From positions 1-64,000 of the forward strand of contig NZ_RRCH01000033.1 in NCBI RefSeq assembly GCF_003862495.1: DNA of 64,000 nucleotides, given 5' to 3'. Below the pieces are notes generated by a model. It did not search any database. It worked only from the letters and a program-made list of their open reading frames with translations, and was not told where the DNA came from. The translations under genes and the position numbers were made by a program. This DNA is from Halocatena pleomorpha (GTDB lineage Archaea > Halobacteriota > Halobacteria > Halobacteriales > Haloarculaceae). How positions within the stretch are numbered: the stretch's first letter is position 1; the number at the start of each line of letters is the position of its first letter. Shown piece after piece: positions 24,473-48,478 of the stretch.

Positions 24473-27400
24473 ATGACTGAGCCTTTCTCGCTGATTTCAG
24501 GACCCGATCCGGCTGAAGCGACAAAGCGAGCATTCAGCTGGGCTTCCGATACGGCTGCGGATGATCCCAACACCATTCTTTGTTTGACACAAAGTCGCGA
24601 ACGAGCGGACCATCTTTCACGCCAATGGCGAGAAGAGGAAGATCCTGTTCGTTTCACCGCAACAACGATAGACCAGTACATCGGTACGCTGTACGAACGG
24701 GCGAGTGTCTCAGTCGCCAGGAGTTCCCTGGCGAAGCCAGATCGGCTTCGTCTCGTTGAAGCAGCAATCGAACGATTCGAGGCGGATAGTGGCCCGTTTT
24801 CCAACGTTCAACAGCCGTCGAACGACCTCGTCGATCAGGTGCAGGGGTTGTTCTCGTTACTCGAGTACGCCGGGTACTCCTCTTCAGATGCAATCGAACA
24901 CGCACTACACTGCGCGGGAACGATGGGTGATGAGGGAATCGATCCCGACCTCTATGGATCGTTCCGCGATGAGGAACCTGACACCCTCAACGGAGCACTC
25001 GCCGAGCAGGCCGCGACCGTCTCCAATCTCTATTCGGCGTATCGAGAGCTACGTGACGAAATTCATCCGTTGTGGACGGCAGAACCCCCGGAGCAATACC
25101 TGGAGTTACTTGACCAGGAACTCCTCGTAGACACACTCCCGGCCTCCGTCGACGCTGTAATTCTGGACGGGTTGACTCGACTTGCGCCCGCTGAGCGAGA
25201 GGCAATCGCCCGAATCGCGAGGAATCGTCCTACTGTAGCGGTCGTTCCGCTCGTACACGATTCGATGAGCGGCACTGGGATTGATCTCGGTGTGAAACGC
25301 GCACTTCAGGTATTTCTCTCGATCGGCTTTACGCTCGATTACAGTACCCCAACGTCTACTGACCACGAACGAATCGACGCCATCAGAAGTCTCCAAACCC
25401 CAACTCACACTGGATCCACGTACTACCCAACCGACGTGGGGATAGAATGGCTCGAGCCATCGACGGAACGAGAGGAGGTGCGGACGACCGCTCGACGCGT
25501 TCGGGAGATGCTTGCGCGTGATAGCGTCAGGCCGGCCGATATTGGCATCGTTGTTACCGACCGGTCGACCTATCGGGGCATCTTGAGCGAAACGCTCACC
25601 GGGTACGATGTCCCGTTCACGTTCACGAACGACATCGGTATCGAACAGACGCTCGTCGGGAGTGCTCTCGAAGCTCTCCTCAACCTCGCTGACGACGATC
25701 CGAAGGGCAGCTCACTCGGAGCCCTTTGCTCGAACGTCTTTGTTTCGTTGAGCGACCTCGACATCGACGCGCCAGCTATCAACTCTGCCCGAGACAATGC
25801 CTCTACGGACTCGCTTCAGGGAATTCTCGAGGAACTCGAAGAGGCTGGAGCGATTGAGACAGCAGAGGGTATCGACCGTCTCAACGACGCGGTCGCCCCA
25901 GCTGACGATTCCCTCGCTGAGTACGCGATGTCGCTTCGAGAGATGCTTTCGCGTCTCGGCATCGAAGATGCCGTCGAAGGATATGGTTCGCCGGACGAAC
26001 CAACCGGGTCACACCAGCCTGCTTACGAAAAATCAGCGTGGTCGTCCATAGAGAGCGTGCTATCTTCCCTCGAAACGATCGCCCCTCATCTTCCTGATGG
26101 CGACCAACCGGGCCGCGTCCATCGGGCACTCCGAGCGGAGCTCGTGGGTGGGCCAGACCAACGAGATGGATACGTCCGTGTCCTTCCGCTGGCCGAAGCT
26201 GAAATGACGTCGTTCGATCACTTGTTCGTCTTGGGATTGACGTCAGGCTACTTCCCCAGCGAACAGGACACTATGGCGTTCTTCGGCGCAATCAACGACG
26301 CCGACGAGGAGTTCAGCCGGGCCCACACCGGCCGACGAGCACGGTACATCTTGGGGACGCTGTTGACCGGGTCCAGAAACGTAGTTCTCTCGACGCCCCG
26401 CCACACCGTCGACGGTACTGAACACGTCCCCGCACCGGTGGTATCGGAACTTCAGGAATCCGTCCAAGCACCGGAGGAGTCCGAAGAGCCATCTGACCAA
26501 GCACCCATCGTCTCCGCTGAAGACGTTCAGCGAGAATACGCAATGTGGGCTGGAGGGCAACAGTTCGATTCCCCGACCCGTGCTGTTGATGGCCTGAACA
26601 CCACCGAGGCCCTCTCAGATGATGCTCAAGTCTTCGCTATTCAGGGTTTGAATACGGTCTGGCGACGGTCTCAGCCTGAACTGACCGTCCACGATGCACA
26701 GATCGGGGGGATCCTCGACGACGTGTTCCCAGCTTGGCGCCGGGGTCCGTATAGCCCTAGTGCGCTGGAAGATTACGCGAGGTGCCCGTTCGTTTTCATG
26801 GCAAAGCGCATTCTCGGCTTCGAAGAGGATTACGGCGAAGAAAACGACATCAGTCGTGCCGACCGGGGAACCTACGTACACAACATGCTGGCGGAATTTC
26901 ACCGCGAGCTCCGTGAGGACACCCACGTCCCCGTCGACCTGAACCGGTCCGACGAGGACCGCCTCGAGGACGCACTACTCCACGCAGCTCTCGACCGACT
27001 TGATACTCTCGGCGACGTCGAAACGCCGTTTGCCCAACGAACAGTCACTAGATTACTCGCCGGACTCGGATCGCCCGTGGACAACCCGTACTATGGAACG
27101 CACGGCAGCGATGACGTGAGAGGTCTTTTCGGCCGCTTTCTCGACGAGGAGCTCGACGCCCATGAATCGGCTCAAGCCCGAGCGACCTACTTCGAGGCCG
27201 CGATAAACCTCGATTACGAAGACGTCGAATTACTCCAGGACGGGCCCGTTAGCATAGACACTCCACACGGGCAGGTGGAGGTTCACGGGATCGCGGATCG
27301 GGTCGACGTCGTCGATGGGGACTCGCGAGGAATCCACGTCCGTGACTACAAGACCGGTAGCACGCCGTCCCGGAACGACGTCACTCTCGGAACGAAGCTC

Positions 27401-27889
27401 CAGTTGCCCATGTATGGGCTCGTCCTTGAGTCCGTCTTGGAAGAGGAAACTGGGATTTCTCACGAGATGCTTGGGGGATCGTACTACAAGCTCAAATCGC
27501 CCGACGAGATCGGCGCCCTCACTGCAGAGGTTTCCTCCCGCGAGGCCGTTGATGACGAGGCTGGCACCCCAATGCTTCCGCCGCCGTCGCAGCCTTGGCG
27601 GCTGCCGTTCGACTCACGCAGAGAGTTCACCCGTCTCGTTCGCGATGTGACTCCTGCCCGTCTTGGAAAGATCGCGACCGGGATCGAAAACGGAGCCTTC
27701 CACCCGACGCTGCTTTCCGAGGATCTCGCGAACTGTAAGGATTGCTCCTTCAGGGATGCCTGCGACGTTCGTCACCATCATCAGCAAGATACCATAGCAG
27801 AGTTGGACGAAACCCGCCACTACGTTTCGGAGCGGGCTCGGGACGTAGAACTGGACCTCGACGCATACGCTCCAATGGGGGATGACTAA
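24473..27889 (+). CDS. AddB-like nuclease subunit with Fe-S cysteines
   Basis: A 1138-residue protein related to the AddB subunit of helicase-nucleases that process double-strand breaks. The N-terminal half is a UvrD-like fold without a good Walker A (LISGPDPAEATKRAF), as in many AddB proteins with an inactive helicase. The C-terminal nuclease shows HGIADRVDVV and HVRDYKTGS near residue 957, followed by QLPMYGL. One Cys near residue 770 (YARCPFVF) and three near 1087-1097 (CKDCSFRDAC) form the AddB-type 4Fe-4S staple. The stop overlaps the next ATG by one base, so the two proteins are made together. Confidence 0.85.
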   Translation: MTEPFSLISGPDPAEATKRAFSWASDTAADDPNTILCLTQSRERADHLSRQWREEEDPVRFTATTIDQYIGTLYERASVSVARSSLAKPDRLRLVEAAIERFEADSGPFSNVQQPSNDLVDQVQGLFSLLEYAGYSSSDAIEHALHCAGTMGDEGIDPDLYGSFRDEEPDTLNGALAEQAATVSNLYSAYRELRDEIHPLWTAEPPEQYLELLDQELLVDTLPASVDAVILDGLTRLAPAEREAIARIARNRPTVAVVPLVHDSMSGTGIDLGVKRALQVFLSIGFTLDYSTPTSTDHERIDAIRSLQTPTHTGSTYYPTDVGIEWLEPSTEREEVRTTARRVREMLARDSVRPADIGIVVTDRSTYRGILSETLTGYDVPFTFTNDIGIEQTLVGSALEALLNLADDDPKGSSLGALCSNVFVSLSDLDIDAPAINSARDNASTDSLQGILEELEEAGAIETAEGIDRLNDAVAPADDSLAEYAMSLREMLSRLGIEDAVEGYGSPDEPTGSHQPAYEKSAWSSIESVLSSLETIAPHLPDGDQPGRVHRALRAELVGGPDQRDGYVRVLPLAEAEMTSFDHLFVLGLTSGYFPSEQDTMAFFGAINDADEEFSRAHTGRRARYILGTLLTGSRNVVLSTPRHTVDGTEHVPAPVVSELQESVQAPEESEEPSDQAPIVSAEDVQREYAMWAGGQQFDSPTRAVDGLNTTEALSDDAQVFAIQGLNTVWRRSQPELTVHDAQIGGILDDVFPAWRRGPYSPSALEDYARCPFVFMAKRILGFEEDYGEENDISRADRGTYVHNMLAEFHRELREDTHVPVDLNRSDEDRLEDALLHAALDRLDTLGDVETPFAQRTVTRLLAGLGSPVDNPYYGTHGSDDVRGLFGRFLDEELDAHESAQARATYFEAAINLDYEDVELLQDGPVSIDTPHGQVEVHGIADRVDVVDGDSRGIHVRDYKTGSTPSRNDVTLGTKLQLPMYGLVLESVLEEETGISHEMLGGSYYKLKSPDEIGALTAEVSSREAVDDEAGTPMLPPPSQPWRLPFDSRREFTRLVRDVTPARLGKIATGIENGAFHPTLLSEDLANCKDCSFRDACDVRHHHQQDTIAELDETRHYVSERARDVELDLDAYAPMGDD

Positions 27890-30800
27890 TGGTGGAGTTC
27901 GAGCACTTGGAAGACCCACAGAAACTGGCTGCTCTGGCCCACGACCGCAACTATGCTGTCACAGCCGGGGCCGGTAGTGGCAAGACGACGACCTTTGCGA
28001 TGCGGTATCTGAAGCTGCTCGAAACTACCGACGCTGACCCGCATTCGACCGCCGCAATCACCTTCACTAAAAGCGGTGCGACAGAACTCAAAGAGCGCGT
28101 CCGAGAGTCCGTCAGCGGTCGACTGGACGAAGCAGACGGCGGCGAGTACGAACGGTGGCGTGAGTACCATGATGCACTCCCGGAAGCCTACATCCACACT
28201 ATTCACGGCTTCTGTTCGCGACTCCTCCATGAGCATGCCCTCGAAGCCGATGTGCCGGTCGGCTTCGACGTCATCGAAGGGACGGCGGCCCGGGGACACC
28301 AACTCGAGACCGTGGAGTCGTTCGTCGAGGATCATCTGAACGACGAACGAATCGAGGAGTTGACTCATATCTACTACCGAGATAGGCTCGAAGACCTTCT
28401 CGGAGATTTACTGGAGGAACATCACCACGCTCGGGAATGGGCGGACGAGTGGGCAGATCAAGATCCGTTGGACTACGTCGAATTCATCCGCGAGCGTTAC
28501 TCACCTATCGACGTTGGCGAAGCACGGACGCTACTTGACCGTTCGACCGTCGAGGAGGCACTTCGGGACATCCGGCAGGTGGCGGACGAAGAGAACGCGG
28601 GCAGAAATCGGATCAGTATCGCCCAGAACGTTGCAGCGGCCGTCGAGACGCACGATCTCATCGGCACGCCTCTGAATGACGTCGCTACCCATGACGCTGC
28701 AGCTGCTCTCTGTGAAGCTCTCACCTCGGACGGAACGCCGTACTATGGTAGCTGGGACAGTTGGTGTTACGGCGGACACGACGACTGGGACGACGAGAAT
28801 ACCGAACGATACGACGAAGCAACGTCCGCGTTAGTGGAGGCACTTCCTGTCGAACGATGGGCCATTTCAGGACGGCTTGCCGTCGAGCACAACGCCGCCC
28901 CGTACTACATTAGTCTCGCATCGCTATTCCGTGATCTTCACGACACATACGAAGATCGCAAGCGACGTGAGCGAGTCCTCGACTTCGCCGACCTGATCGA
29001 CGGTTGTATCGACCTACTACGATCGTCTCCGACAGTTCGGGCAGCCGTTCGAGAATCATTCGACCACGTCATGCTCGACGAGGTTCAAGACACGGACCCA
29101 AGACAATGGGAGCTGGTCGAGTTGTTGACCTCCCTGAACACCGAGTACGACGGGCTGAACGTCTTCGTGGTCGGCGACGAAAAACAGAGCATCTTCCGGT
29201 TCCGCGGCGCTGACGTTACACAGTACGCGGTAGAACGCGAGAGACTCGCCCAGGCAAACCAGCAGGCGTCGGTTTCACCGCTCGAAGAAACCTACGACGT
29301 CGGGGAGAGGAGAGATCTGTCGCGCAACTTCCGGTCACTTCCGGGCGTTCTCGAACCGATTAACGATCTTTTCGACGACCTCTTCGGCCAGGTTCCTCAA
29401 ACCCATCAGGATGCGCCGCCAGGGATCAGCGGGGACGATACCTCCTTCGAGCCAGATCCACAACGTCTGGCCCCAGATAGAGCTGACGAGTCCGAGATCG
29501 GCCTGGGTGCGACTTTCGTCCTCGTACCGGAAGAGCGGCCAGTGCGGGAGGAAGCCCTCACTGAAGACTACCAGCTTCGTGAACTCTCCGAAGATGGCGC
29601 CACCCTCGATGCACGAGCATTAGCTGCCGAGGTCGCAGCCTTCCTCGATGACGCACCTGAGCGCTACGAAGTTACTGGCTATGAGGATGGCGAACCCCTC
29701 GAGGAACCTGTCGAGCTGGAACCGAAGGACGTGGCTATTTTACTGCGGAAACGGACTCACCTCGAATCGTACGAACGAGCTCTCGCCTCGCTAAACGTTC
29801 CCTACACGGTGGCTTCGGGGATCGGGTTCTACGAGAGCACGGAGATCACAGCCATCCGGAATCTCCTCGCGGTGCTTCAGGATCCAACCGATGATCTCGC
29901 ACTGTTCGGCGTCTTACGCTCACCTCTATTCGGCTTCGAAGACACGGACGTGATCGGCCTCTGGGACAGTATCGAGCGGGACGACATCGGTGATGGTGAA
30001 CTTTGGCGCGCGCTCCAGCGAACTGACCACGACCGACTGACCACTGCTCGAGAGCGTATCGAAACCTGGCGCCGACTCGCTGGCTGTAGTGGGCCGACGC
30101 CACTGGTGGAAACCTGGGACGCGTTACTCGGCCGGATAATCGAAGATACTGGGTATCTTGCGAGTCTCGCACTCGACGAGCGCGGCCAGCAGGCTATCGC
30201 CAACGTCGAGAAGTTCCGCGATCGCCTTCGGGAGTGGGGTGAAGACGGACTACAGACTCTCCCAGAAGTCGTCGATCGAATCGATCGCGAGGTCGAGCTC
30301 TCGAGCCGGGAGGGTGAAGCGGCAGTACCCGAGGATGCCGATGGCGTCAGGATCATGACCGTCCACGATGCGAAGGGTCAGGAGTTCCCGGCTGTATTCG
30401 TCCCGGGCCTCTCGACGGACTTCAACCTCCGACCAGGCTATGGCGAGAACATTGCTGAGTTCGAAATCATCGAGGACCCGCTGACAGACGACTGGCAGCC
30501 ATTGCTTGGCATCCGTGCACCAGGAATCGTTGACGTCTTTGAGCAGCAAGACACGATCCTCAAACGACGACTCAACTTCTCCAGGAAACGCGAAGCCGTT
30601 GCCGAGGAGAAACGGATTCTCTACGTCGCTACGACGCGCGCCAGGGACCACCTCTTCCTGATCGGCACCGCTGGAAGCGACGACGAGTCGGTAGAATCAC
30701 TCGATACCGGTGATCGGGGCGACCCCTCGAATTGGTACGATATCGTTGCACCAGAGATACTCTCCGACGAAGTTCTCGAAGAACTCGCTGTGGCCGGATC

Positions 30801-31638
30801 GACGGCGGTTCCGGAGGAGGGAGAAACCACCGTAACAGTGCGGTTTCCCAGGGCGAGTACGGAGTCCACCACGGGCGATACCGCTGAACCAATTTCTCTG
30901 CAACCTGACGTCGATGCGTATGAGGTTGAACCGGAATACGATATTGCGGCGTCGTACTTGGGTTCGCTCATCGAGGATGGGGCGCCCGGGGACATCGTCG
31001 TCGACCATACTGGACGGTACGTCTCTTACGAGCCCCCAGAGGACGATTCGGGTTCAAGTTCCTCGGGCGGGGAGTATACGGGCCTTCCTCGGAACGTTTT
31101 CGGCGACGTCGTTCACAAGGCCGTCGAGTTGCGCGTCGATCCCGACGACGAGTCCGCCCTTCATCGATTGACCGAGCAGGTCGCGACTCGGCACGAAGTT
31201 TCTTCCGACAACGTGACTCAAACCGACCTTTCAGATATTTCGCGTCACGTGGCTACGGCATCGGAGTATCTGACTTCCCTTGATGAGGGTGGCAGCGTAG
31301 ACGAGAAAATGGTCCGAGCGATGCTGGATTCAGGACAACTGTACGGATACGCTGACCACATCTCGAAAACGGATGGCGGATACCACGTCATCGACTACAA
31401 GACCAACGACATTTCACGTCCACACCTGATCGATGCGAAGTCAAACTACTACGAGTGGCAGATGAAGGTGTACGCTGTGGCGCTTCACCAGTCTAATCCG
31501 CAGATGAACGTAGAGGCAACGCTGCTCTTTACCGAGGCTGGTGTCCGACGATCATTCCAGTGGAGTTCTGAGGAGCTCGAAGATCTGGAAACTGAGCTTG
31601 ACGCTACCGTCTGTTCGAGACTCTCGACTCATCTGTGA
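27889..31638 (+). CDS. AddA-like UvrD helicase with C-terminal nuclease
   Basis: A 1249-residue SF1A helicase-nuclease. Walker A is VTAGAGSGKTTTFAM near residue 26. Motif II is HVMLDEVQDTDPRQ near residue 393, motif III GDEKQSIFRFRGA, motif V VRIMTVHDAKGQEFPAVF near residue 820, and motif VI RILYVATTRARDHL near 906. The C-terminus is a RecB-like nuclease with YGYADHI and HVIDYKTND near residue 1167, then WQMKVYAVAL. Together with the AddB-like gene it should unwind and degrade DNA ends, for repair or against foreign DNA. AddAB is best known from bacteria. Confidence 0.88.
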   Translation: MVEFEHLEDPQKLAALAHDRNYAVTAGAGSGKTTTFAMRYLKLLETTDADPHSTAAITFTKSGATELKERVRESVSGRLDEADGGEYERWREYHDALPEAYIHTIHGFCSRLLHEHALEADVPVGFDVIEGTAARGHQLETVESFVEDHLNDERIEELTHIYYRDRLEDLLGDLLEEHHHAREWADEWADQDPLDYVEFIRERYSPIDVGEARTLLDRSTVEEALRDIRQVADEENAGRNRISIAQNVAAAVETHDLIGTPLNDVATHDAAAALCEALTSDGTPYYGSWDSWCYGGHDDWDDENTERYDEATSALVEALPVERWAISGRLAVEHNAAPYYISLASLFRDLHDTYEDRKRRERVLDFADLIDGCIDLLRSSPTVRAAVRESFDHVMLDEVQDTDPRQWELVELLTSLNTEYDGLNVFVVGDEKQSIFRFRGADVTQYAVERERLAQANQQASVSPLEETYDVGERRDLSRNFRSLPGVLEPINDLFDDLFGQVPQTHQDAPPGISGDDTSFEPDPQRLAPDRADESEIGLGATFVLVPEERPVREEALTEDYQLRELSEDGATLDARALAAEVAAFLDDAPERYEVTGYEDGEPLEEPVELEPKDVAILLRKRTHLESYERALASLNVPYTVASGIGFYESTEITAIRNLLAVLQDPTDDLALFGVLRSPLFGFEDTDVIGLWDSIERDDIGDGELWRALQRTDHDRLTTARERIETWRRLAGCSGPTPLVETWDALLGRIIEDTGYLASLALDERGQQAIANVEKFRDRLREWGEDGLQTLPEVVDRIDREVELSSREGEAAVPEDADGVRIMTVHDAKGQEFPAVFVPGLSTDFNLRPGYGENIAEFEIIEDPLTDDWQPLLGIRAPGIVDVFEQQDTILKRRLNFSRKREAVAEEKRILYVATTRARDHLFLIGTAGSDDESVESLDTGDRGDPSNWYDIVAPEILSDEVLEELAVAGSTAVPEEGETTVTVRFPRASTESTTGDTAEPISLQPDVDAYEVEPEYDIAASYLGSLIEDGAPGDIVVDHTGRYVSYEPPEDDSGSSSSGGEYTGLPRNVFGDVVHKAVELRVDPDDESALHRLTEQVATRHEVSSDNVTQTDLSDISRHVATASEYLTSLDEGGSVDEKMVRAMLDSGQLYGYADHISKTDGGYHVIDYKTNDISRPHLIDAKSNYYEWQMKVYAVALHQSNPQMNVEATLLFTEAGVRRSFQWSSEELEDLETELDATVCSRLSTHL

Positions 31639-35135: not shown

Positions 35136-35837
35136 GTGATCACACAACCACCATTCAACGCCAACCTAGCGATACTGGAACCAGGTAAAGAGAACCACCA
35201 GGAAGCACTCAAAGGCATCAAGAATCTACAGTTTACGGAGAGTCGCTCATACGGTTTCAACATATCCGAAACAGGCGATATGACGATGGGGGGACACCTG
35301 GTAGAGAAAACTCTTGTAAAAAGAGAAACATTCGATGAGTCCACACAGCGAGTGGTAGACAAGGAGGTGGAGCAAACACTTCTGATCCCTTTCCAGCTTG
35401 ACTTCGATATCGGTCTACTTTCTATATTCTCCGATCAAAGCGACACCAGTAAGCTGATCTCAAGGGTCGGTGAGGCCAGCGATTTCAACTTTCCAATTAC
35501 CGAAACACAGCTTCCGATAGATAGATTGTACGCCGATCTACAGGACACGGCGTGGTCCATTGACGTGTCCAGTATACGAATCCAGAATTTTGAGGCAGAG
35601 GGTGGGATGTCCGGAACTTATACAATCAAGGATGTTGGGGATATGCGTATCCGTGCATTGATAGACTCACACAGCAGCGATATCACAATTTTAAGGGCGA
35701 ACATCAAAACGCCGTCACAAGAGGCTACTTTCGGCTTCTTCCAGAGTGGTACAGTCCGACTGTACTCCAGCCTGGAGTCAGAGGACCCGCTGTGGACTGA
35801 GGTAAAGAAGATAACTCGAGAGGCATACGATGGCTGA
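35136..35837 (+). CDS. Unknown protein, first gene of a three-gene operon
   Basis: A 233-residue protein that I cannot place. It starts with GTG (MITQPPFNANLAILEPGKEN), and AAGGT lies ten or so bases upstream. Alternating polar/apolar stretches (QTLLIPFQLDFDIGLLSIF, ISIRIQNF-like) suggest a mainly beta-strand fold. There are no Cys pairs, membrane segments or nucleotide-binding loops. It overlaps the nuclease gene behind it by eight bases. Frequent AGA/AGG and other codons unlike the AddAB genes suggest that the operon came from elsewhere. It may be a sensor or structural subunit; this is speculation. Confidence 0.7.
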   Translation: MITQPPFNANLAILEPGKENHQEALKGIKNLQFTESRSYGFNISETGDMTMGGHLVEKTLVKRETFDESTQRVVDKEVEQTLLIPFQLDFDIGLLSIFSDQSDTSKLISRVGEASDFNFPITETQLPIDRLYADLQDTAWSIDVSSIRIQNFEAEGGMSGTYTIKDVGDMRIRALIDSHSSDITILRANIKTPSQEATFGFFQSGTVRLYSSLESEDPLWTEVKKITREAYDG

Positions 35838-36798
35838 AGAAGAACGTAACTCCGGCGATAGGGCCGAAAAGAGGCTCATTGCCCTGTTGAAGGAGTTCGA
35901 GTGGGACTTCATCGGCGGTGGAAGAGACATCGACTGTGAGTCTCGAAAGCACGAGAAAGACGAACACGGTATTGACGGCTATATGGCCTACAGGGACCCA
36001 TACCTCTCATCTGAAAGGGGTGTCATTGTAGAATCTAAATCTAAACAGTGGGGCAGCTGGGGTCCTAGCTCGCTTCAGAAGGACGCAAAACAGGCCAGGA
36101 CCGCCTTGGAGTGCTCTACAAGATCTAAGGATTTTGAGGAGAAGCTAAACAATTACGAGAGTAGGAGGAGAGATACAGCAATTCTCGGCGCCTACACCAA
36201 CGACGATGATTACGACCATGAGACTTTCCAAGCCTATGTAGAGAGCTGCAGGGTCAAGAGAGGTGGAGGCCCCAACCACATCCTCATCCTCGGCAATAGA
36301 GAGCTTGGTCGTCTCGCCAGCATACAGAGGAAATACAGGGAGATTGAGGAAGCGCACACCAACGGTGAGGACATTATCGAAGGAGACCTCAACTTCTACT
36401 ACCCGTCACTCCAGGAGCCAAAGGCTGCTCCTGAACGGCGTAGTACTATGTCGTTTGAATACCTGTTTTCCGACTTTGTCTACGCGAAGCTTCAAAAGAC
36501 AGAGAGGACCGGTAGGGGTGCTGAAACGAGAGATATCAGTATTGTATTCAACTCTGCCGGAACTGATACGGACAGTCTTGAGTTCTTGTACTACTCGCTG
36601 CGCGACAACGAGCTACTGGACGCCAACGAGATCTGGATCTACTCGTATATGCAGCCTGGAGAAGAGGAAGACGAAATCTATGAAGCAGCAATCGACACGC
36701 TGGAGGAACGTATCCTTCCACCAGAGAAGCGGTTCGAGTTCAACCAGTTGCCGAAAGTTGATTTCAAATCATACGCAGATGACCTGAGGGAGGACTAA
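35830..36798 (+). CDS. Putative PD-(D/E)xK endonuclease, second gene of the operon
   Basis: A 322-residue protein. The first 100 residues show a nuclease core: RAEKRLIALLKEFEW helix, then DEHGIDGYMAY and GVIVESKSKQW, which supply the Asp and ExK of a PD-(D/E)xK site. A helix with KDAKQARTALE follows, at the place of the usual Q-helix. The second half (FYYPSLQEP, FVYAKLQKTERTGRG, PPEKRFEFNQLP) is unknown and may bind the partner. It starts inside the end of the first gene and ends two bases before the third. DNA cleavage is inferred from the motif; the target is unknown. Confidence 0.75.
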   Translation: MAEEERNSGDRAEKRLIALLKEFEWDFIGGGRDIDCESRKHEKDEHGIDGYMAYRDPYLSSERGVIVESKSKQWGSWGPSSLQKDAKQARTALECSTRSKDFEEKLNNYESRRRDTAILGAYTNDDDYDHETFQAYVESCRVKRGGGPNHILILGNRELGRLASIQRKYREIEEAHTNGEDIIEGDLNFYYPSLQEPKAAPERRSTMSFEYLFSDFVYAKLQKTERTGRGAETRDISIVFNSAGTDTDSLEFLYYSLRDNELLDANEIWIYSYMQPGEEEDEIYEAAIDTLEERILPPEKRFEFNQLPKVDFKSYADDLRED

Positions 36799-36800
36799 CT

Positions 36801-38102
36801 ATGGACGAGTACCCCAGCGACCAGGACTACAAAGCCATCGTTAAGGAAAAGTATGGACGTAACAAGGCACAGACCTTCTTCCGCAAACACTCCAACGTAC
36901 TAGTACACTCCGGCGAAACAGAGGACTTGGCTAACCTTACACGCCGGATGTTCTTTGGATACGAACAGACTGTTTCTCTCAAAAAAGACGTACTGGAAAA
37001 GGATAAGAGAAAGAAAGCCACCGCATTCATCTTTGAGAGTGAAGTAGATGAAGAGGATCTCATAGAAGATCTGGAGACAAACATGGGGAGAGGATACCAG
37101 TATAACGAGAACAAAGACCTGGAAGTACAAAGTGTGGCCAAAACAGACGATGGCTTCGATATCAACCTGCAGTACGAGGATCGCAATCCGTCTCGACGTC
37201 CTCTCCAAAGCCAACAGAGCCGTTCGGTCACCGTCTCCCTCATACAGACAGACGAAGACGGGGTCTGGCAAGGAACCCAAGAATACCGCTACTCGGACGA
37301 GTTCAACGCTGCCAGCGACTTCTTCAAAGATTGGGAGTCAAAGAGACTCAGCGAGCGAAAACGGGGAATCAAGAGAGTCAATTTCAATCTGGAGACGATC
37401 CCTGCAGAAGACAGCGTTGAGATGTTCAACAAATTCCTCCGGAATACACCAGGGGAATGGAGATTTGAGCAGGTCCTTGAACTCGGTATCAAGCAAAGCG
37501 GAGAGGTCGGTGACATACTTGAGGAAGAAGAAGCCGAATTTGAGGACGAGGAAGAGATCGAGGAAGAACTGGACGAAGAGCTTAGGGGTATAACAGATGC
37601 TGTATTCAAGGGGACTAGTCTGAGAGAGAACCGGTTTGTGCAGGACTGCCTGGACAGCGGCTTTTACTTCAACTCTGTCAGGGCTCTATTCGACGACCTA
37701 GACTCAACAGACTCGATGGAGCTTGAGCTCAAGTTCAAACAACGACCAAAGACGACCTTCGACATCTCCATTGTGGAAGAGTATGAGCGACGTGATGACG
37801 GCTACGAATCTGGAACCCTTGGTCCAGATAAAAGAGGGAAGACACGAGAAGCGTTTAGAAGCTCCATCGTGGATCTGTACGGCGAATACACCGACCGAAC
37901 CGCCCTGATCCAGGACCAATACGGGGAGGAGCTAATCGAGTTCAACGGAATCACTGGGAACAATATCGATCAGCTCCACAACCTCGGTATTGAAACGCCA
38001 CAAGATCTCTACGATGCTGGACCCCAGACCTTGATAGATGAAGTGGAAGGAATCGGTAAGATGAGAGCCGAAGACTTCACTGGAGAAACGGTATCGGACT
38101 AA
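36801..38102 (+). CDS. Acidic protein ending in helix-hairpin-helix, third gene of the operon
   Basis: A 433-residue protein of unknown family. It begins with a basic helical part (YKAIVKEKYGRNKAQTFFRK), continues with mixed strands, and has a very acidic coiled stretch near residues 235-260 (EEEEAEFEDEEEIEEELDEE). The C-terminal 50 residues hold HNLGIETPQDLYDAGPQTL and EGIGKMRAEDF, a helix-hairpin-helix repeat as in DNA repair proteins. It therefore probably touches DNA without sequence specificity. It follows the nuclease gene by two bases. I suggest a DNA-guiding subunit for that nuclease, as inference. Confidence 0.7.
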   Translation: MDEYPSDQDYKAIVKEKYGRNKAQTFFRKHSNVLVHSGETEDLANLTRRMFFGYEQTVSLKKDVLEKDKRKKATAFIFESEVDEEDLIEDLETNMGRGYQYNENKDLEVQSVAKTDDGFDINLQYEDRNPSRRPLQSQQSRSVTVSLIQTDEDGVWQGTQEYRYSDEFNAASDFFKDWESKRLSERKRGIKRVNFNLETIPAEDSVEMFNKFLRNTPGEWRFEQVLELGIKQSGEVGDILEEEEAEFEDEEEIEEELDEELRGITDAVFKGTSLRENRFVQDCLDSGFYFNSVRALFDDLDSTDSMELELKFKQRPKTTFDISIVEEYERRDDGYESGTLGPDKRGKTREAFRSSIVDLYGEYTDRTALIQDQYGEELIEFNGITGNNIDQLHNLGIETPQDLYDAGPQTLIDEVEGIGKMRAEDFTGETVSD

Positions 38103-38708: not shown

Positions 38709-38921
38709 ATGAACAGAACATCGGTGTCTTCAAGCAATCTGAGAAGCGTCGGATACGACCAGGACAACCGTATCTTGGAGATTGAATTTAACAGTAATAG
38801 TGTCTATCGATATTTCGACGTTCCTTCAAGCATCCATGCAAACCTGATGAATGCGTCTTCCCACGGAAAGTATTTCCATAGGAATATCAAGGATGTGTAC
38901 CGATATGAGCAGGTTCGATAA
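38709..38921 (+). CDS. KTSC-domain protein
   Basis: A 70-residue single-domain protein with the KTSC signature: SNLRSVGYDQDNRILEIEF, then SVYRYFDVPSSIHANLM and SSHGKYFHRNIKDVYRY. KTSC domains are small, sometimes fused to lysyl-tRNA synthetases, nucleases or phage proteins, and their biochemical role is unknown. It is the first gene outside the right inverted repeat and converges with the Mrr-type gene. Confidence 0.85.
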   Translation: MNRTSVSSSNLRSVGYDQDNRILEIEFNSNSVYRYFDVPSSIHANLMNASSHGKYFHRNIKDVYRYEQVR

Positions 38922-39030: not shown

Positions 39031-40053
39031 TTACTCCTTGAGTGGCGGATCCTGAGACGGGATATAGACCCGCTTCAGCGGGACCGTGGCCTGATACTCG
39101 GCTTCGAGTTCGTCGTAGTGCTGAATCAGGAGATCAATGAACGCATCCCGGTCGATGAGCGTCACCCGCTGTTCAGCAGTGCGTGCCGCATCCCGTGCAT
39201 CCTTCGTATATCCACCAGTCGAAACGAACAATCCCCGTTCGCCATTTCCAAGGGTTCCCGTAAACGCTCGCATATCCGGAGACCCGACCGTCGACTGCTG
39301 GCGCTTAACCTGAACCTTGATGTAGGGCTCTTCGAATCCCAACGCGTCGGGATGTGCGATGACGTCAATCCCCCGATCCTGCCGGTCTCGAGTTTTCTTT
39401 GCATGGTACCCCATCGCTCGCAGGACTGCCGCAACCAGTTCCTCGAAGACGAATGGGTCCATGTTCGCCAGAATATCGGAGATGAGTTCGTCTGCTTGGT
39501 TTGCAACCTCGTCGACGAACGGGACACTCTCCTCGTCGTCTTCGCTCCCATCGGGGATATTCCCCGCTAGAACGGCCCTGATCTCGTCAAGACGGTCGTC
39601 CAGCGAAAACACCGTCAACGTGCTTCCGAGCGTGTTCTTCGTTGCCGTAGTAAACACATCCCGTGAGATGGAGTCCTTCCAGTCGACACGCCTGACGTGC
39701 GGATAGCCTGGTGGATGGTCGCCGGGCTCCCACTCGTAATCGCCTGTGACTTGCCCAATGAGATACTCCCGTTCCGTTTTGTCATAACTCAACACCAGAT
39801 GACCCTCCTCCATCTCAACTGCAAATCGATGCACCTGCCCCGCACTTTGGGCAATGTGTCGGTCATTGTGTTTGGAATACGCATCGATCGCGTTGAACTG
39901 GGATTTCATCTCATCGTATGACCGGATCTCCGAAACATCGCCAAGCTCTGCCCAGCTGATCGCAACGAGGGAACGAGATTCGAAGTCTTCGACTAACTCG
40001 TTATCGTTTCCCGCGCGAACCATGAACGCTCGCTCTACAATCATACCAAACAT
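39031..40053 (-). CDS. Mrr-type restriction endonuclease with N-terminal EVE/MrcB-like segment
   Basis: A 340-residue protein. The N-terminal half (RAFMVRAGNDNEL, SLVAISWAELGDVS, RVDWKDSISRD) is the domain that precedes many archaeal Mrr nucleases and probably binds DNA. The C-terminal half is the nuclease: FEELVAAVLRAMGYHAKK, RDRQDRGIDVIAHPD, YIKVQVKRQ, the D-QxK site. Type IV enzymes of this kind cut modified foreign DNA. Starts at 40053, 40044 or 40023 are all possible; family members begin just before RAFMVRAG, and a TTTAAA box directly precedes 40053. It follows herA by 112 bases on the same strand. Confidence 0.88.
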   Translation of the reverse strand: MFGMIVERAFMVRAGNDNELVEDFESRSLVAISWAELGDVSEIRSYDEMKSQFNAIDAYSKHNDRHIAQSAGQVHRFAVEMEEGHLVLSYDKTEREYLIGQVTGDYEWEPGDHPPGYPHVRRVDWKDSISRDVFTTATKNTLGSTLTVFSLDDRLDEIRAVLAGNIPDGSEDDEESVPFVDEVANQADELISDILANMDPFVFEELVAAVLRAMGYHAKKTRDRQDRGIDVIAHPDALGFEEPYIKVQVKRQQSTVGSPDMRAFTGTLGNGERGLFVSTGGYTKDARDAARTAEQRVTLIDRDAFIDLLIQHYDELEAEYQATVPLKRVYIPSQDPPLKE

Positions 40054-40165: not shown

Positions 40166-41809
40166 CTAGTCCAGACTTTGGACGCCGGTGGACTCTCCTC
40201 CACCGAAGTCAGCAGCTTCGGAGTGCGTCGGCTCGCGTTGCTGTTGCTCATACGCATCACGCCACTTCTCAATCACCGGTAAACTTCCGGCACCATGTTG
40301 TGTGCGCCGACCACGCACCTGTATCAGTGCTGGTGTATTCATCGCGTCGCCAGAAACAACCGCTTGGCCAGGTGTCAGTCCAGGTAACTCGCGGAGAACG
40401 TCTTCGCCCGCCGCCTCAATAGATTTCTTGATCGCGTCTTGGTCGTTCGGATTCTGAATCTGCATCGAAATCTGCGTCCCGCACTGGGACAACACGTCCT
40501 GATCGATCTTGGATGGCCGTTGGCTGATAATGCCCAGTCCGAAGCCGAACTTGCGTCCTTCGGACGTGATTGTTCGCATGATTCCGAGCGACGGGGCATC
40601 ACCAGATGCCGGTGCGAACCGGTGTCCCTCCTCGAACAGTGCAAAAATCGGATGTTCGATCTCGGAGTCTCGGCCTCGAACAGCATCGAGCCGTTCTCGA
40701 TACATCCGCCGGAGTAATACCGTCGTGATGAGTTGTTGATTCCGGCGATCTAACGTATCCATCTGTAGCACTGTACATTGGCCAGGATCTACGATATCAT
40801 TTAGCGGGACATTGTCTTCGGGATGGAACAGATCGTTCCGTTCAATTGACCGGCGAAGCCGCCATTCTAGTGCACCGACACTCGCATCGTCCTCTCCGTA
40901 TATCCCTTCCATCTCATTGATGAGTTCATTGATGCCCCACGTCCGACTCTCCTGTCGCTGCATCGAACGCCATGCCGTCGACAAGCGGTCTTGCATCCGA
41001 TTGCTCGGATTGTCCAAGACCGCCATGACGTCGCCAATCTCCAGTTCCGAGATGCGAACGCGAAGGCGTTCAGGATCGTAGTACACAACGCCCGGCTCAT
41101 ATCCGTCCTCGCCTTTGAACGTCTCATGGCCTTGCATCTCTGCTAGGGTATCGTACTCGCCGTGCGGGTCGAATACGAGTAGCGACGCGCGAGCACCGGG
41201 GCCCATCATCTCTTCGATCAACACAGACGCCGTATATGATTTCCCGCTCCCAGTAGACGCAAGGATCGCCAAGTGCGTCGACGCGAACTCCTCAATTGGA
41301 ATGTGTATGTTCGTCGCCTCTGGCGACCGATTCAATAGCCACCCAATGTGGGCAATTCCATCCAGGTCCGTCACATCAGCACTGTCGGTGTCACAGCCGA
41401 GGTTCGGAAGAACTGTTTCGAGTTGTCGGTCAGGCGCGATCGACAGAGGTGTCCCTGGTTCAGGGAGTTGTCGCGGATTAGCAAACGTTGTCATATCGGT
41501 ATTATAATACCCGATGACTGTCGCTGTCAGTCGATACAGTTCGGTGTCATCGGTCGGGACTCCGAGTGTTGTCGCGACCGTCTCCGGCGCCACCTGAGGA
41601 TCAGCGAGGAACCCTTCAGGCAACCCCCTGATTAGTTCCCGATTTGTGACGCGAGCAAACACCGACCGGTTCTCGCCATCGACTGTAACGGTGTAGGTGA
41701 TGAACTCCCCCGTCTTGAGCGACTTCTCTGCAGGGGTGATGAAGACGAACTCGTTCGGGTCATCACCCGGCCCAGCGACGGTTCCGACTGCCGATGAGTG
41801 TCCGGACAT
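40166..41809 (-). CDS. herA: HerA-like DNA translocase
   Basis: HerA is a hexameric FtsK-like ATPase that moves along DNA ends and activates NurA. The 547-residue protein has an N-terminal HAS barrel (VFARVTNRELIRGLP, TATVIGYYN). Walker A is ILASTGSGKSYTASV near residue 183, Walker B PIFALFEEGHRFAP near 389, and SEGRKFGFGLGIISQRPSKI follows as the sensor region. The length is normal. Its ATG overlaps the stop of the HAS-barrel gene by one base, and the order mre11-rad50-nurA-HAS-herA predicts one transcript. Confidence 0.92.
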   Translation of the reverse strand: MSGHSSAVGTVAGPGDDPNEFVFITPAEKSLKTGEFITYTVTVDGENRSVFARVTNRELIRGLPEGFLADPQVAPETVATTLGVPTDDTELYRLTATVIGYYNTDMTTFANPRQLPEPGTPLSIAPDRQLETVLPNLGCDTDSADVTDLDGIAHIGWLLNRSPEATNIHIPIEEFASTHLAILASTGSGKSYTASVLIEEMMGPGARASLLVFDPHGEYDTLAEMQGHETFKGEDGYEPGVVYYDPERLRVRISELEIGDVMAVLDNPSNRMQDRLSTAWRSMQRQESRTWGINELINEMEGIYGEDDASVGALEWRLRRSIERNDLFHPEDNVPLNDIVDPGQCTVLQMDTLDRRNQQLITTVLLRRMYRERLDAVRGRDSEIEHPIFALFEEGHRFAPASGDAPSLGIMRTITSEGRKFGFGLGIISQRPSKIDQDVLSQCGTQISMQIQNPNDQDAIKKSIEAAGEDVLRELPGLTPGQAVVSGDAMNTPALIQVRGRRTQHGAGSLPVIEKWRDAYEQQQREPTHSEAADFGGGESTGVQSLD

Positions 41810-42474
41810 TAGACCACCCCCCGACGTTCACGTGCCTGCCACTCGATATTCTGCTCAACCACGTCCAACGTCCGTTGGCTTGGATCATCCTCGGGAAGCA
41901 TCCGTCGCAACCGATCGATCAATGCGACGATGACCTCTGAACCGAGATCACCTGCGATATCGACGAGTCGGTCGAGATAGGCTAATTGGAGCTGTTCGTC
42001 GACGGTGTGGAACGACAGGGCCACTTCATCTGGACAGTGATAGACTGTATCATCGACTTCCAATGTCCACCGTGGCATTCGATGGGTCGGATCCGCGATT
42101 GACCGGTTGTCAGTAATGACGGCTGTCCCAAGGAGTGCCACACCAGCAAGTGTGGTTCGCTCCTCAATGTATCCGGGCGTGAACTGTGCCTGATCGTCTT
42201 GGGCTAACCGGGGACCGGTTCGCCCCTGGTCAGGATCGACGAGCTTCGTGTCGTAAATCACGCCCATGACCGCGTGCTCCGTTCCATCGACGACCTTCTT
42301 GATGAAGACGGGTTGTCCGAACTCCCGCTCGTGGAGTTCTGGCGGCCGATCACAATCACGTCCCTTGAGGATCTCGACCACATAGTCGAGATGGCTATTC
42401 GAGGAAACGATGCTTCCAATTCGGACACATGAGTCGAGATTCGGTGTGACAACATCTGTTGCTGACTCTGTCAT
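41809..42474 (-). CDS. Stand-alone HAS-barrel-like protein
   Basis: A 221-residue protein between nurA and herA. Its first 120 residues (CVRIGSIVSSNSHLDYVVEI, FGQPVFIKK, HAVMGVIYDTKLVDP, VALLGTAVI) resemble the HAS barrel found at the N-terminus of HerA and of ATP synthase subunits. The rest is helical (LAYLDRLVDIAGDLGSE, LIDRLRRMLPEDDP). It has no Walker motifs. It could cap or regulate the HerA hexamer. This role is inferred from fold resemblance and position only. Confidence 0.7.
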   Translation of the reverse strand: MTESATDVVTPNLDSCVRIGSIVSSNSHLDYVVEILKGRDCDRPPELHEREFGQPVFIKKVVDGTEHAVMGVIYDTKLVDPDQGRTGPRLAQDDQAQFTPGYIEERTTLAGVALLGTAVITDNRSIADPTHRMPRWTLEVDDTVYHCPDEVALSFHTVDEQLQLAYLDRLVDIAGDLGSEVIVALIDRLRRMLPEDDPSQRTLDVVEQNIEWQARERRGVV

Positions 42475-42547
42475 AGATTCACCTCTGAAGTGCTGCGTAG
42501 TGGGTGGGCGAGTGGTGCTCTGACTGCTTTTGTCGTTTTTTCGTTGG

Positions 42548-43813
42548 TCATCGGCGGCGAAGTTCTTTGCTCAGTGCTTTGGCGTTCCATTCTAGCGGTA
42601 CATCGTTTGAGTCAGCCCACCGCTGCACGACCCGGTGGAACTCTTGCCGGTCCTTTTGGTCCAGCACAGCATCGCTATCCACCTGCTGGAGGATTTCGGG
42701 ATATCCACGCCCGATACCGGCCTCTGCACGCACGATCTCGACGGTGTACTCGTACATCGACTCGTACCCGTCAGGACCGTCGCTGCGGCACAGCCATCCC
42801 GGGAACTCAATTCGGTCAAGGCCAGCACCTGGCGGCACGTTCAGATACGAAAATAGGATGTCATCACGGAATTTGTATGTTTCATCCTCATAGGTCGTCT
42901 GTAACGCGTCGATGCTGCCATCACGCTTTGAGATGAACGGAACCGTTGTGTCGCCCCACGGGCTCATCAACTCTGTTAACACATGCGCATCTGGAATGAC
43001 GCGATCTGTCTCGAATTCCTCGGGTAACAAGAGTCGCGTCATTTTCACCAGTTCTGTCGCGCTCGAATCCGCGACGTACCCAACTAGTGGAATCTCGTGG
43101 TGCTGACTCGCCGCAATCACTCGACTCAACGTTGAGATGTATCGTTCTCGTGTCTCGGGTTTCAACGGATTCGTAAACGACGCGATCAGTGGCCCGTCGT
43201 AGAACACGACCGGTGTGTGGGTAATTTCGTCTGCATTATAGGCGGCAGCGAGGTCGGACAACCGGTCGATCAAGAGCCGCCCTTCATGTTCGAATCGATG
43301 ATGGCCGACGAGCTGTGAATCGACGAACCGGTAGTCACCATTTTCTGGTTCCTGTGTCACCTCACCAGGCGTCAGGAGCTGTCCTTCAACGTCACGGTCA
43401 AATCGTCCTTCCGCATGGTGGTGGTTCACTGCCCACGCCGACTGGACATACGCAACCGGAACGTTGAACTGCGTAGTGGGTGGGAGCTGGGACCCGTCAA
43501 CAGCCATCACGGGGATGTCACGGATAATGTCACGTGCCCACTCGTTAACCTCCTCGTGGTTTTCCCATTCATTGCTTTCCGAGTGCGGCACGATGATACT
43601 GGTCGCGTCATCGAATACGTCTGTTGGGGACGCGCCTGGATACGATACGTTCTGTAGCGCTTCCCGAATTTCCTCACTCGTCCACTCTTGGGGGAGTCGC
43701 TGGAATGCGTCCTGGTACCGCTCAACGATCCTGGAATCATCCTCTAAGTACGCTTTAATCGTCTCAACGTTGGCCTCTAACTCGGTGGCAACCCCATGTT
43801 TGTCAATCGGCAT
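42548..43813 (-). CDS. nurA: NurA-domain nuclease
   Basis: NurA is a 5'-3' nuclease that forms the resection machine with HerA, Mre11 and Rad50. This protein has 421 residues. The catalytic Asp lies in PVMAVDGSQLPP near residue 105. Further NurA elements are VVFYDGPLI, PLVGYVADSSATELVKM and the late motif GRGYPEILQQVDSDAVL. The ATG at 43813 overlaps the end of rad50 by one base. The RNase H-like fold and the operon agree. Confidence 0.9.
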   Translation of the reverse strand: MPIDKHGVATELEANVETIKAYLEDDSRIVERYQDAFQRLPQEWTSEEIREALQNVSYPGASPTDVFDDATSIIVPHSESNEWENHEEVNEWARDIIRDIPVMAVDGSQLPPTTQFNVPVAYVQSAWAVNHHHAEGRFDRDVEGQLLTPGEVTQEPENGDYRFVDSQLVGHHRFEHEGRLLIDRLSDLAAAYNADEITHTPVVFYDGPLIASFTNPLKPETRERYISTLSRVIAASQHHEIPLVGYVADSSATELVKMTRLLLPEEFETDRVIPDAHVLTELMSPWGDTTVPFISKRDGSIDALQTTYEDETYKFRDDILFSYLNVPPGAGLDRIEFPGWLCRSDGPDGYESMYEYTVEIVRAEAGIGRGYPEILQQVDSDAVLDQKDRQEFHRVVQRWADSNDVPLEWNAKALSKELRRR

Positions 43814-46524
43814 TAATTGACCGTCACCTCCGATATCTGCCGATCTTTCGTCACCGAAATGGTGTAGTCGGTCATTGAATCGAACGTTTCGTCGTGACTG
43901 ATAACCGTAAGCTGTTCGAAGCTATCCAGTTGTTTTAACTGTGTGACTAAATTTCGTTTCTTCTGCCGATCGAGATTCGCCGTCGGCTCATCCAAAAATG
44001 CGACGCCGATTGATGCCAGCTGTTCGAGGATGGCAAGCCGCACAGCGAGTGCAGCCGCCATCTTCTCACCGCCACTCAACGTCGTAAACGATTTCCTCAC
44101 GTCTGCATCGTGCACGACGATCTCGTAATCACTTGTCCACTCAAGTGTCTCGGCAGATGCTCCCCGAATCGTCCGGAACAACTCGTTCGCCCGCGTGCCG
44201 ATCCGGTCGGTGATGATCTCCCGCATCTTGGGTCCGGCTTCTCTGACGTTCTCCCGAACCCATTCCGCGAACTGCTGGTCTGCCTTCAACTCCTTCAGCT
44301 GCTGCAGCTTCTCCTGGCGTTCTCCTAACTTCGTCTCCAAGCGTTCGATTTCTTCGTGTGCGTCGCGGAGGGTCTCCTCTTTCTCTTCGAGAGCACCTTT
44401 CGCTCGCTGTATCTCCCCTTTCAGATCCTCAATGTCCGACTCAAGTGTCTCCAGCCGATCCTCCTCAAACGATGCTTCCGTCTCTTCAAGTTTGGTCTCT
44501 GTCTCTTCGAGAGCTCCTTCGAGCTCCTCACGTTCATCCTGCAAGTCGTCGACAGTTTCCTGGCGAGCCTCCACTTGTGAGGCCTGTTGCTCGTGCTTGA
44601 TATACGTCTGGTACGCCGACTCAGTCTCCTCTAGCGTCTCTTTGGCCTCCGCCAATTTCTCATCTACCTCCTCATACTCCTGCAACTCGTCTTCGATTTC
44701 CTCCAACGTCGAAGTAGCAGAGTCAAGGTCCGCGCGTTTTTCCTCCAGCTTGTCCGGCACGTCGGTGTGCTCCTGTACTCGGAACGTAGCAGTCCGGTAC
44801 TCTTCGTATGCGTCCTTCAGTTCGTCCCGCTCCGCTTCGAGAGCTGGGAGTTCCGCTAACCCTTCTTCGAGATTTTCTAGCTTTGTCCTCGTCTCTTCCT
44901 TCTCTCCCCGGAATTTGTCGAGGTCGACTTCCAGTGACTCAATCATCTCACGGTAGATCGGGAGCTTATCAGCACGTCGCTTGACTTCCTGGGCCTCCTC
45001 ACGTCGCTCACGCAAGTTGGATAACTCTTCACTGAGGCTCTCGCGTTCCGTCTTAATCTCGTCAATCCGGGCTTCACGTTGCTCAATCGCGTCCAACTGG
45101 TGTTCTTCGTTCAACGGACGGTCACACGTCGGGCACGGTGCATTCACATCCGTGTCACGCAACCGTTCCAACTGATTTTTCAGCCGTTTCCGTTCGTTCG
45201 TTAGTTGCTGTCGGCGAGCCGTCCGGTCATTGATTTCATTGTCGAGTTCTTCCGGATTCGTCGTTGCCTCCCACTCGTCCTCAATCTCTTCGACCGTCTC
45301 ATCTAGCGACTCAATCTCTTCTTGCTTCGAGTCGATGTCTCTGGAAAGGCTCTGGATCTGCTCTTGTAACTCCTCAACCTCGTCCTCGCGTTGCTGCAGC
45401 GAGACGATCTTTTCGTCAAGTTCTTCATATCGTTCCGTCTCGTCCTTACACGTCTCCAGCGTTTCCCGAGCCGATTTTAACGTCTCTAAATCATCCTCAA
45501 GCTGTTCAACTTTGAATGTGATCGACGCGATCTTCTGTTCGTGATCGTTTTTCTGTTCAACGAGTTCAGCCCGTTCCTCCTCTCGTTTTTCTAATTCGTT
45601 CAGCCGGTCATTCACCTCCGTATGCAGACGGTATTCCTCACGATTGGCTTCACACTGCTCCTGAGCCGTCTCAGCGGCACGAAGCTCATCTCTTGCAGTC
45701 TCTAACGCTTCCCTGGTAGATTCAAGCTCCAGTTCTAATGAAGAGATAGTCTGTTCGAGGCTGTCAATCTCCGCCTGCACTTGCTCCAACTCATCACGTT
45801 GTGCATCTTTCGCGGCTACCTCACTCGTCATCCGATCAATCTTCGCCTCGATTGCTTCGATCTCCTCAGCCAGTGATTCCGCTTTCGCACGCTCGTTCGG
45901 CAGATCCGCCACTGTACTCGTGAGTCCCACAATCTCATCACGGAGTGCGCGTTGCTCTTTCTCAATCGCATCCGGAACCTCCTTGAGTCGCTCCCAGGAC
46001 GTTTCATACGCATCAAGATTCAGTAGCGCATCGAACGTTGCCTTCCGGGGCTTGGGATTCTGCGCAAAGTCAGACAGAAATCGGGTCTGTGGGACACCAA
46101 TACACGTCTTCCACAGACTCTGTAGTTCCGTTTTATCATCAACGTCAAATCGGGTGCATAACCATCGAATCAGCTCAGATTTAGAATCGATATCCTGATC
46201 AACCCAGTTATCGCCCTCGAAAGCATACTGGTGCACACCATAGTTCGACCGGCCAGCTGATCGTGTGACTCGGAATCGCTGCCGTCCGCTTTGTGTCTCC
46301 TGTTCGAACGTAACCTCGACAGTCCCGGAACTTGTACCCTCGCGCACGAAGTCTTTATTGTTGAATGGCAGTGAATCGAACAACGCGAACCCAATTGCTT
46401 CCTGAATCGTCGATTTCCCTGCGCCGTTCTCTCCGAGAATCGCCGTCACACCACCCTTGATTGGCACGACCGTTCGATCCTCGTATGACTTGATATCCTC
46501 CAACGCAACTTCCGTAACCCTCAT
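43813..46524 (-). CDS. rad50: Rad50-like SMC ATPase
   Basis: A 903-residue SMC-type ATPase. Walker A is ILGENGAGKSTIQEA near residue 30, the zinc hook CPTCDRPL near residue 463 between two long coiled coils, the signature TLSGGEKMAAALAVRL near 813, and Walker B VAFLDEPTANLDRQ near 845. With Mre11 it tethers and processes DNA ends. It overlaps mre11 by four bases (ATGA). It need not be the housekeeping copy, because the four-gene set with nurA and herA lies inside a defence island. Confidence 0.95.
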   Translation of the reverse strand: MRVTEVALEDIKSYEDRTVVPIKGGVTAILGENGAGKSTIQEAIGFALFDSLPFNNKDFVREGTSSGTVEVTFEQETQSGRQRFRVTRSAGRSNYGVHQYAFEGDNWVDQDIDSKSELIRWLCTRFDVDDKTELQSLWKTCIGVPQTRFLSDFAQNPKPRKATFDALLNLDAYETSWERLKEVPDAIEKEQRALRDEIVGLTSTVADLPNERAKAESLAEEIEAIEAKIDRMTSEVAAKDAQRDELEQVQAEIDSLEQTISSLELELESTREALETARDELRAAETAQEQCEANREEYRLHTEVNDRLNELEKREEERAELVEQKNDHEQKIASITFKVEQLEDDLETLKSARETLETCKDETERYEELDEKIVSLQQREDEVEELQEQIQSLSRDIDSKQEEIESLDETVEEIEDEWEATTNPEELDNEINDRTARRQQLTNERKRLKNQLERLRDTDVNAPCPTCDRPLNEEHQLDAIEQREARIDEIKTERESLSEELSNLRERREEAQEVKRRADKLPIYREMIESLEVDLDKFRGEKEETRTKLENLEEGLAELPALEAERDELKDAYEEYRTATFRVQEHTDVPDKLEEKRADLDSATSTLEEIEDELQEYEEVDEKLAEAKETLEETESAYQTYIKHEQQASQVEARQETVDDLQDEREELEGALEETETKLEETEASFEEDRLETLESDIEDLKGEIQRAKGALEEKEETLRDAHEEIERLETKLGERQEKLQQLKELKADQQFAEWVRENVREAGPKMREIITDRIGTRANELFRTIRGASAETLEWTSDYEIVVHDADVRKSFTTLSGGEKMAAALAVRLAILEQLASIGVAFLDEPTANLDRQKKRNLVTQLKQLDSFEQLTVISHDETFDSMTDYTISVTKDRQISEVTVN

Positions 46525-48041: not shown

Positions 48042-48057
48042 AACCAATAGACCTGAA

Positions 48058-48068
48058 TAGTTTAAGAT
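48058..48068 (-). promoter_or_regulatory. TATA-like box of the mre11 operon
   Basis: On the minus strand ATCTTAAACTATTC lies 18-30 bases before ATG 48041, consistent with a leaderless start. It supports 48041 over the longer frame. Confidence 0.5.
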
Positions 48069-48478
48069 ATTGGATCTGATGAGCTCGGATAGCGGAGACA
48101 AAGACAAGGGGGATCTTTGTTCGAGAAGGATGTGAATGTGGACAGTAGGGAGCGACGGTGCTTCGTGGAATCTGTTGTCGGAGTCACGACCGTCCTAAAG
48201 AGGATTCTCTCCTTGAAGGAAGATAGTCTAAACAAAACTTATGTACCACGCCCTCTCGTTTTACGAGTGAATTATATGATGTGGAAACTGATCGGGCATA
48301 GAGCTATAGAAGCTATTCGGACTACTATCTCTAGTGCCGGGTTCGACCGACCAGAATTCCTACTTGAAAGCACGATCGGTGTTAATACCCCAGAATCACT
48401 ATCGACAGCACAGACTACTATCGCCAGTAAAAACTCAAAATCGTTCGTTAATAGTATTACCACTCAATAATTCCTCAT
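48069..48478. other. Divergent promoter stretch without a gene
   Basis: About 410 bases separate the leftward mre11 operon from the rightward restriction-methylation pair. I see no gene. AT-rich boxes near 48230-48250 and 48445-48460 may be promoter elements. Divergent starts leave room for joint regulation. Confidence 0.5.

Follow-up and report, generated by a model that had tools for sequence, protein, structure and literature searches.

A three-gene haloarchaeal operon as a divergent variant of the 3HP antiphage system, with a predicted nuclease and a predicted RdgC-type fold

Three adjacent genes in the haloarchaeon Halocatena pleomorpha raise the question of whether they form a defence system of their own kind or a distant version of one already known, and of how their products might act together. 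The genes, here called A, B and C, lie on the forward strand of the window, by which is meant the whole 64,000-nucleotide stretch that was analysed (contig NZ_RRCH01000033.1, positions 1 to 64,000). Gene A (35136..35837) begins with a GTG start and encodes 233 amino acids, gene B (35830..36798) encodes 322 and gene C (36801..38102) encodes 433. The original prediction, made from the sequence alone, placed an 8-base overlap between A and B and a 2-base gap between B and C, and the open reading frame coordinates agree with both junctions. Identical junctions are found in the three closest relatives, namely the locus on the Halobacterium DL1 plasmid and loci L020 and L021, which share 75-80% nucleotide identity with the window copy. 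Comparison with these relatives gives dN/dS values of 0.02-0.07 for each gene; A, B and C are therefore genuine coding genes that are selected as proteins, and all three are under strong purifying selection.

The operon was also predicted to differ from its neighbours in codon style. This is true mainly of arginine, for which AGA and AGG account for 34 of the 67 codons in the operon versus about 56 of 650 across 14 genes of the neighbourhood, and of GC content (48-50% in the three genes, 51-59% in the neighbours). In total codon-usage distance, however, A, B and C do not exceed other short genes in the vicinity. It is probable that the operon was acquired independently of the genes around it.

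Those surroundings are a defence island, as the original prediction had it, with several defence-type operons flanking A-B-C in the window. Upstream lies an AddB/AddA-like pair (24473-31638) composed of a PD-(D/E)XK protein followed by a UvrD helicase with a C-terminal PD-(D/E)XK domain. Just downstream of C is a short open reading frame of 70 amino acids (38709-38921) that presumably resembles a KTSC domain, followed on the reverse strand by an Mrr-domain gene (39031-40053) that matches the PADLOC candidate PDC-S02 with an E-value of 2e-112. A five-gene operon on the same strand (40166-48107) encodes a HerA-like protein, a 221-amino-acid protein of unknown type, NurA, a Rad50/LmuB-like SMC protein and an Mre11-like phosphoesterase, and is possibly a combined end-resection or Lamassu/MADS-like defence operon. 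Further along, a large Eco57I-type methylase gene, with DrmMI and type IIG enzymes as its best matches, overlaps a gene for a SNF2-type helicase (48479-55688) in what may be a DISARM-like or a type IIG-helicase pair, and a McrB-like AAA protein is encoded together with McrC (59037-62431) as a McrBC type IV restriction system.

Homologues of B are present on plasmids of Halobacterium DL1 and Natronorubrum daqingense, in Halosimplex salinum and Halolamina salifodinae, and in further haloarchaea. The neighbourhood comparison proposed with the original prediction bears out its expectation that the three genes belong together: all ten distinct haloarchaeal loci that have B (the window, L004, L005, L018, L020-L023, L039 and L040) carry the genes in the order A-B-C and in one direction. 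A census of 391 Halobacteria genomes found A in 12 and B in 9, with full-length C in each genome that has B and in no other, such that B and full-length C never occur without A. The profile for C matched all 391 genomes, and nearly all of these matches covered only the helix-hairpin-helix (HhH) region at profile positions ~340-423 and were discarded. A pattern scan of genomes with B alone found nothing, and scans of viral contigs using the haloarchaeal profiles revealed no halovirus copy. Three genomes (G096, G122 and G418) have A with neither B nor C, so A can have another role. Stand-alone homologues of A were located in three haloarchaeal genomes at L036 5197-5910, L037 5205-5918 and L038 5346-6068; judged by eye, the neighbours in L036 and L037 look chromosomal and include a NAD synthase-like gene and a PAS-domain regulator.

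The first and third genes had been thought to match no known family. As far as Pfam goes this is correct, yet PHROG families are matched by all three genes: A matches phrog_5850 (E 5.8e-7), B matches phrog_7059 (E 9.5e-18) and C matches phrog_6531 (E 3.8e-12), all of which are listed in PHROGs with function unknown. The same three families are matched by the Pseudomonas proteins Hp3, Hp1 and Hp2, respectively (E 3e-40, 2e-105 and 3e-91). A three-gene system in a P2-prophage hotspot is reported to protect against phage P1 (Rousset et al. 2022, PMC9122126), and Rst_3HP is the DefenseFinder name for a prophage-borne system (PMC9090908). In a Klebsiella P2-like phage, a trio located between the portal and replication endonuclease genes matches the PADLOC models Hp1, Hp2 and Hp3 over their full length with 722, 820 and 521 bits, and an E. 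coli prophage carries the trio at the same site. Following the naming used by the tool, we equate PADLOC Hp1-Hp3 with the 3HP system that Rousset et al. described; the location in the P2 hotspot and the full-length model match support this equation short of proving it. Trios from Aliarcobacter and Pseudomonas likewise match Hp1, Hp2 and Hp3, and bacterial copies are carried by temperate elements of the P2-like and Pf-like kinds and of Vibrio. All bacterial 3HP loci found comprise these three families. The 13 kb record of Pseudomonas phage 54-4, a filamentous phage, contains the whole Hp1-Hp2-Hp3 set, which is unusual cargo for such a phage.

Profile-profile comparison with hhalign pairs the haloarchaeal and bacterial families one-to-one, giving 98.2% for A with Hp3, 99.0% for B with Hp1 and 97.7% for C with Hp2, with all off-diagonal pairs below 1%. 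On this sequence evidence, the assignment of A, B and C as homologues of Hp3, Hp1 and Hp2 is firm. Trees of the three proteins, whether separate or combined, split the haloarchaea together with a Bacteroides-type locus (L007) from the other bacteria with 100% bootstrap support. Such concordance is what joint transfer and evolution of the three genes would produce, and the split parallels gene order: the ten haloarchaeal loci and the Bacteroides-type loci L007 and L035 all have A-B-C, or Hp3-Hp1-Hp2, whereas other bacteria have B, then C, then A (Hp1-Hp2-Hp3), as in the plasmid-borne copies of Aliarcobacter, Vibrio and Pseudomonas.

The window trio thus shares with 3HP all three homologues, their adjacency in one operon, the nuclease active site and a setting in mobile elements and defence islands. 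It differs not only in gene order but also in the HhH tail of C, which bacterial Hp2 does not have, and in sequence, the haloarchaeal proteins being 13-20% identical to bacterial members. When the PADLOC profiles are applied to the window trio, Hp1 alone gives a match, with an E-value of 0.0018, and Hp2 and Hp3 give none at E 10. Because the published profiles miss it and its gene order is different, the trio is classified as a divergent variant of 3HP and not as a detected member. The system had originally been thought undescribed, an idea that has to be given up, since the three-gene 3HP system is already known in bacteria. Clear assignment to a known restriction or phage-structural operon had been named in advance as grounds for abandoning the prediction; the trio does have a known operon as its counterpart, in the spirit of that reservation, but 3HP falls into neither of these two classes.

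Turning to the individual proteins, B is predicted to be a PD-(D/E)xK nuclease. The residues originally pointed out in the motifs HGID and VESK are present, namely Asp49 of the former (codon 35974..35976) and Glu68 and Lys70 of the latter, which together with Ser69 make up the (D/E)xK motif ESK (codons 36031..36039). In an alignment of 20 homologues, Asp49 and Lys70 are retained in every sequence and position 68 is always Glu or Asp. An E. coli homologue of B is annotated PD-(D/E)XK. A sequence search of the PDB using the A, B and C families as well as GapS4a and GapS4b returned no relative.

For A, a model was built with AF2 from a 12-sequence alignment (pLDDT 83, pTM 0.77), and it has a two-part, TBP-like architecture. 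The best Foldseek matches to this model are E. coli RdgC and another RdgC, with E-values of 7e-8 to 1e-6 and a probability of 1.0, at a moderate TM-score of 0.55 by query length and an rmsd of 8.5. CENP-L and TBP come next, and phage RdgC homologues are matched in BFVD. In Pseudomonas phage 54-4, the Hp3 homologue is independently annotated as an 'RdgC-like exonuclease'. Structural work on lambda RexA groups RdgC, RexA and Iml3-Chl4 type structures as one DNA-binding fold, in which RdgC holds DNA in a ring and Iml3(CENP-L)-Chl4(CENP-N) is a heterodimer that contacts DNA (PMC11077077). Both RdgC and the kinetochore protein CENP-L/Iml3 bind DNA as dimers shaped like a ring or a horseshoe. The model suggests that A has a fold of this RdgC/CENP-L type, which is meant as a structural resemblance and not as a claim of membership. 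Differences from the RdgC-fold proteins are that no sequence similarity to A was detected, with no match of A to RdgC in Pfam or the PDB, that these proteins have no nuclease partner, and that A, at 233 amino acids, is shorter than RdgC at about 300. No prominent conserved basic patch was found in A or C, each of which has one such column at 80% or more, and sequence comparison lends no support to homology between A and C or to internal repeats in either.

The C-terminal extension of C is specific to haloarchaea. Its HhH-like tail, delimited as residues 376-424 (37926..38072) from alignments, protein lengths and the Pfam profile HHH_5, scores below the cut-off for that profile (E 0.007; 17.2 bits versus 27). 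The tail had been predicted from the sequence, and although the Pfam match is sub-threshold, 8 of 10 haloarchaeal C proteins retain it; it is missing in L039, and the L023 protein is truncated near a contig end. Every bacterial homologue of C lacks it. The AF2 model of C is poor (pLDDT 48) and gives no Foldseek match at an E-value of 0.001; RdgC and CENP-N appear among its matches at 0.018-0.1, which is a hint, and only that, of a resemblance to these proteins. These results cast doubt on the division of labour first put forward, with A as a sensor and C binding DNA through its HhH domain: A itself has the predicted RdgC-type DNA-binding fold, and the HhH domain looks like a haloarchaeal addition that is absent from all bacterial homologues and from L039.

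Combining these lines of evidence, we put at roughly 0.75 the probability that the operon is a haloarchaeal branch of 3HP and that it attacks foreign DNA by means of a nuclease carried on a scaffold that clamps DNA. The parts of this reading that we infer are the formation of a complex, the clamping of DNA, the feature recognised and the defence activity in haloarchaea. It retains from the original prediction the core idea of a three-component unit with a PD-(D/E)xK nuclease acting against mobile genetic elements, as the trio is a conserved unit in a defence island and most likely has that role. As a hypothesis for its action, A, probably with C, would form a clamp on duplex DNA and recognise some feature that marks the invader; from the biology of RdgC, this might be DNA ends, replication forks or recombination structures. 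The clamp would then place the active site of B, which would cut the invading DNA, with C serving as a third, obligate subunit that gained its HhH tail in haloarchaea. That A and C make up a heteromeric clamp like those of RdgC or Iml3-Chl4, threading onto invading DNA or closing around it and licensing the nuclease, is a tentative proposal that we regard as somewhat less probable than its converse.

Other explanations of the locus can be weighed against this one. GAPS4 is a two-gene antiphage system consisting of the nuclease GapS4a and GapS4b, and the operon could be a member of it with an extra gene. B matches the NCBIfam model for GapS4a (NF047933) with an E-value of 1.1e-12, the B family pairs with the Pantoea GapS4a at 97.8% in profile-profile comparison, and the second gene, immediately downstream of the nuclease, is of similar size in both systems; B and GapS4a are thus distantly homologous nucleases. 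However, the 47.8 bits of B are far below the curated cut-off of 270, which none of the 391 Halobacteria genomes passes. C is not recognisable as GapS4b, with no match to NF047934 and a profile comparison of 0.7%, and the Pantoea locus has no counterpart of A. In the aligned Pantoea GapS4a (L010 6001-6927), Ser stands where the (D/E)xK motif has its acid, giving SAK, an alignment which suggests that the acid may be displaced in that protein. GAPS4 membership was rejected on the scores of B and C, and this explanation is accordingly very unlikely. Hardly worth entertaining is the idea that three unrelated genes came to lie together by chance, which has nothing in its favour beyond the lack of Pfam families and is ruled out by the constant order in ten of ten loci, the concordant trees and the recurrence of the three families in all bacterial 3HP loci.

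Two further explanations accept the trio as a unit and assign it a different task. It could be an accessory module for DNA repair or recombination, pairing an RdgC-like protein with a nuclease outside of defence: the predicted fold of A is that of a recombination-associated protein, stand-alone A has ordinary chromosomal neighbours in G096 and G122, and the window also contains the AddAB-like and HerA-NurA-Rad50-Mre11-like genes. Core repair genes are not as sporadic as this trio, which occurs in 9 of 391 genomes, and its locations in plasmids, prophages and satellites, along with the antiphage activity published for the P2-hotspot trio, make a repair module improbable. A better candidate, if still an unlikely one, is a module for the maintenance of mobile elements or for competition between them, whose targets would be other mobile elements such as rival plasmids and proviruses instead of lytic viruses. 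The haloarchaeal plasmid copies lie near TFB, ParA and integrase genes and the bacterial copies reside in temperate elements, as such a role would have it, but the surroundings of the window copy are a defence island made up of several systems, and the published bacterial activity is directed against phage P1. The mechanism proposed above would be the same under this explanation, the one difference being the natural target.

The reading of the operon as a haloarchaeal 3HP branch bears on a system that has hitherto been a black box, consisting of three hypothetical proteins with antiphage activity. A deep archaeal branch extends 3HP across domains, and as the profiles used for finding defence systems miss this branch, inventories of archaeal defence undercount 3HP. 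The RdgC-type fold predicted for A and Hp3, together with the GapS4a-related nuclease B, provides 3HP with a mechanism that can be tested. If the mechanism is true, a nuclease that encircles DNA would be an immune principle common to bacteria and archaea, distinct from restriction based on sequence or modification.
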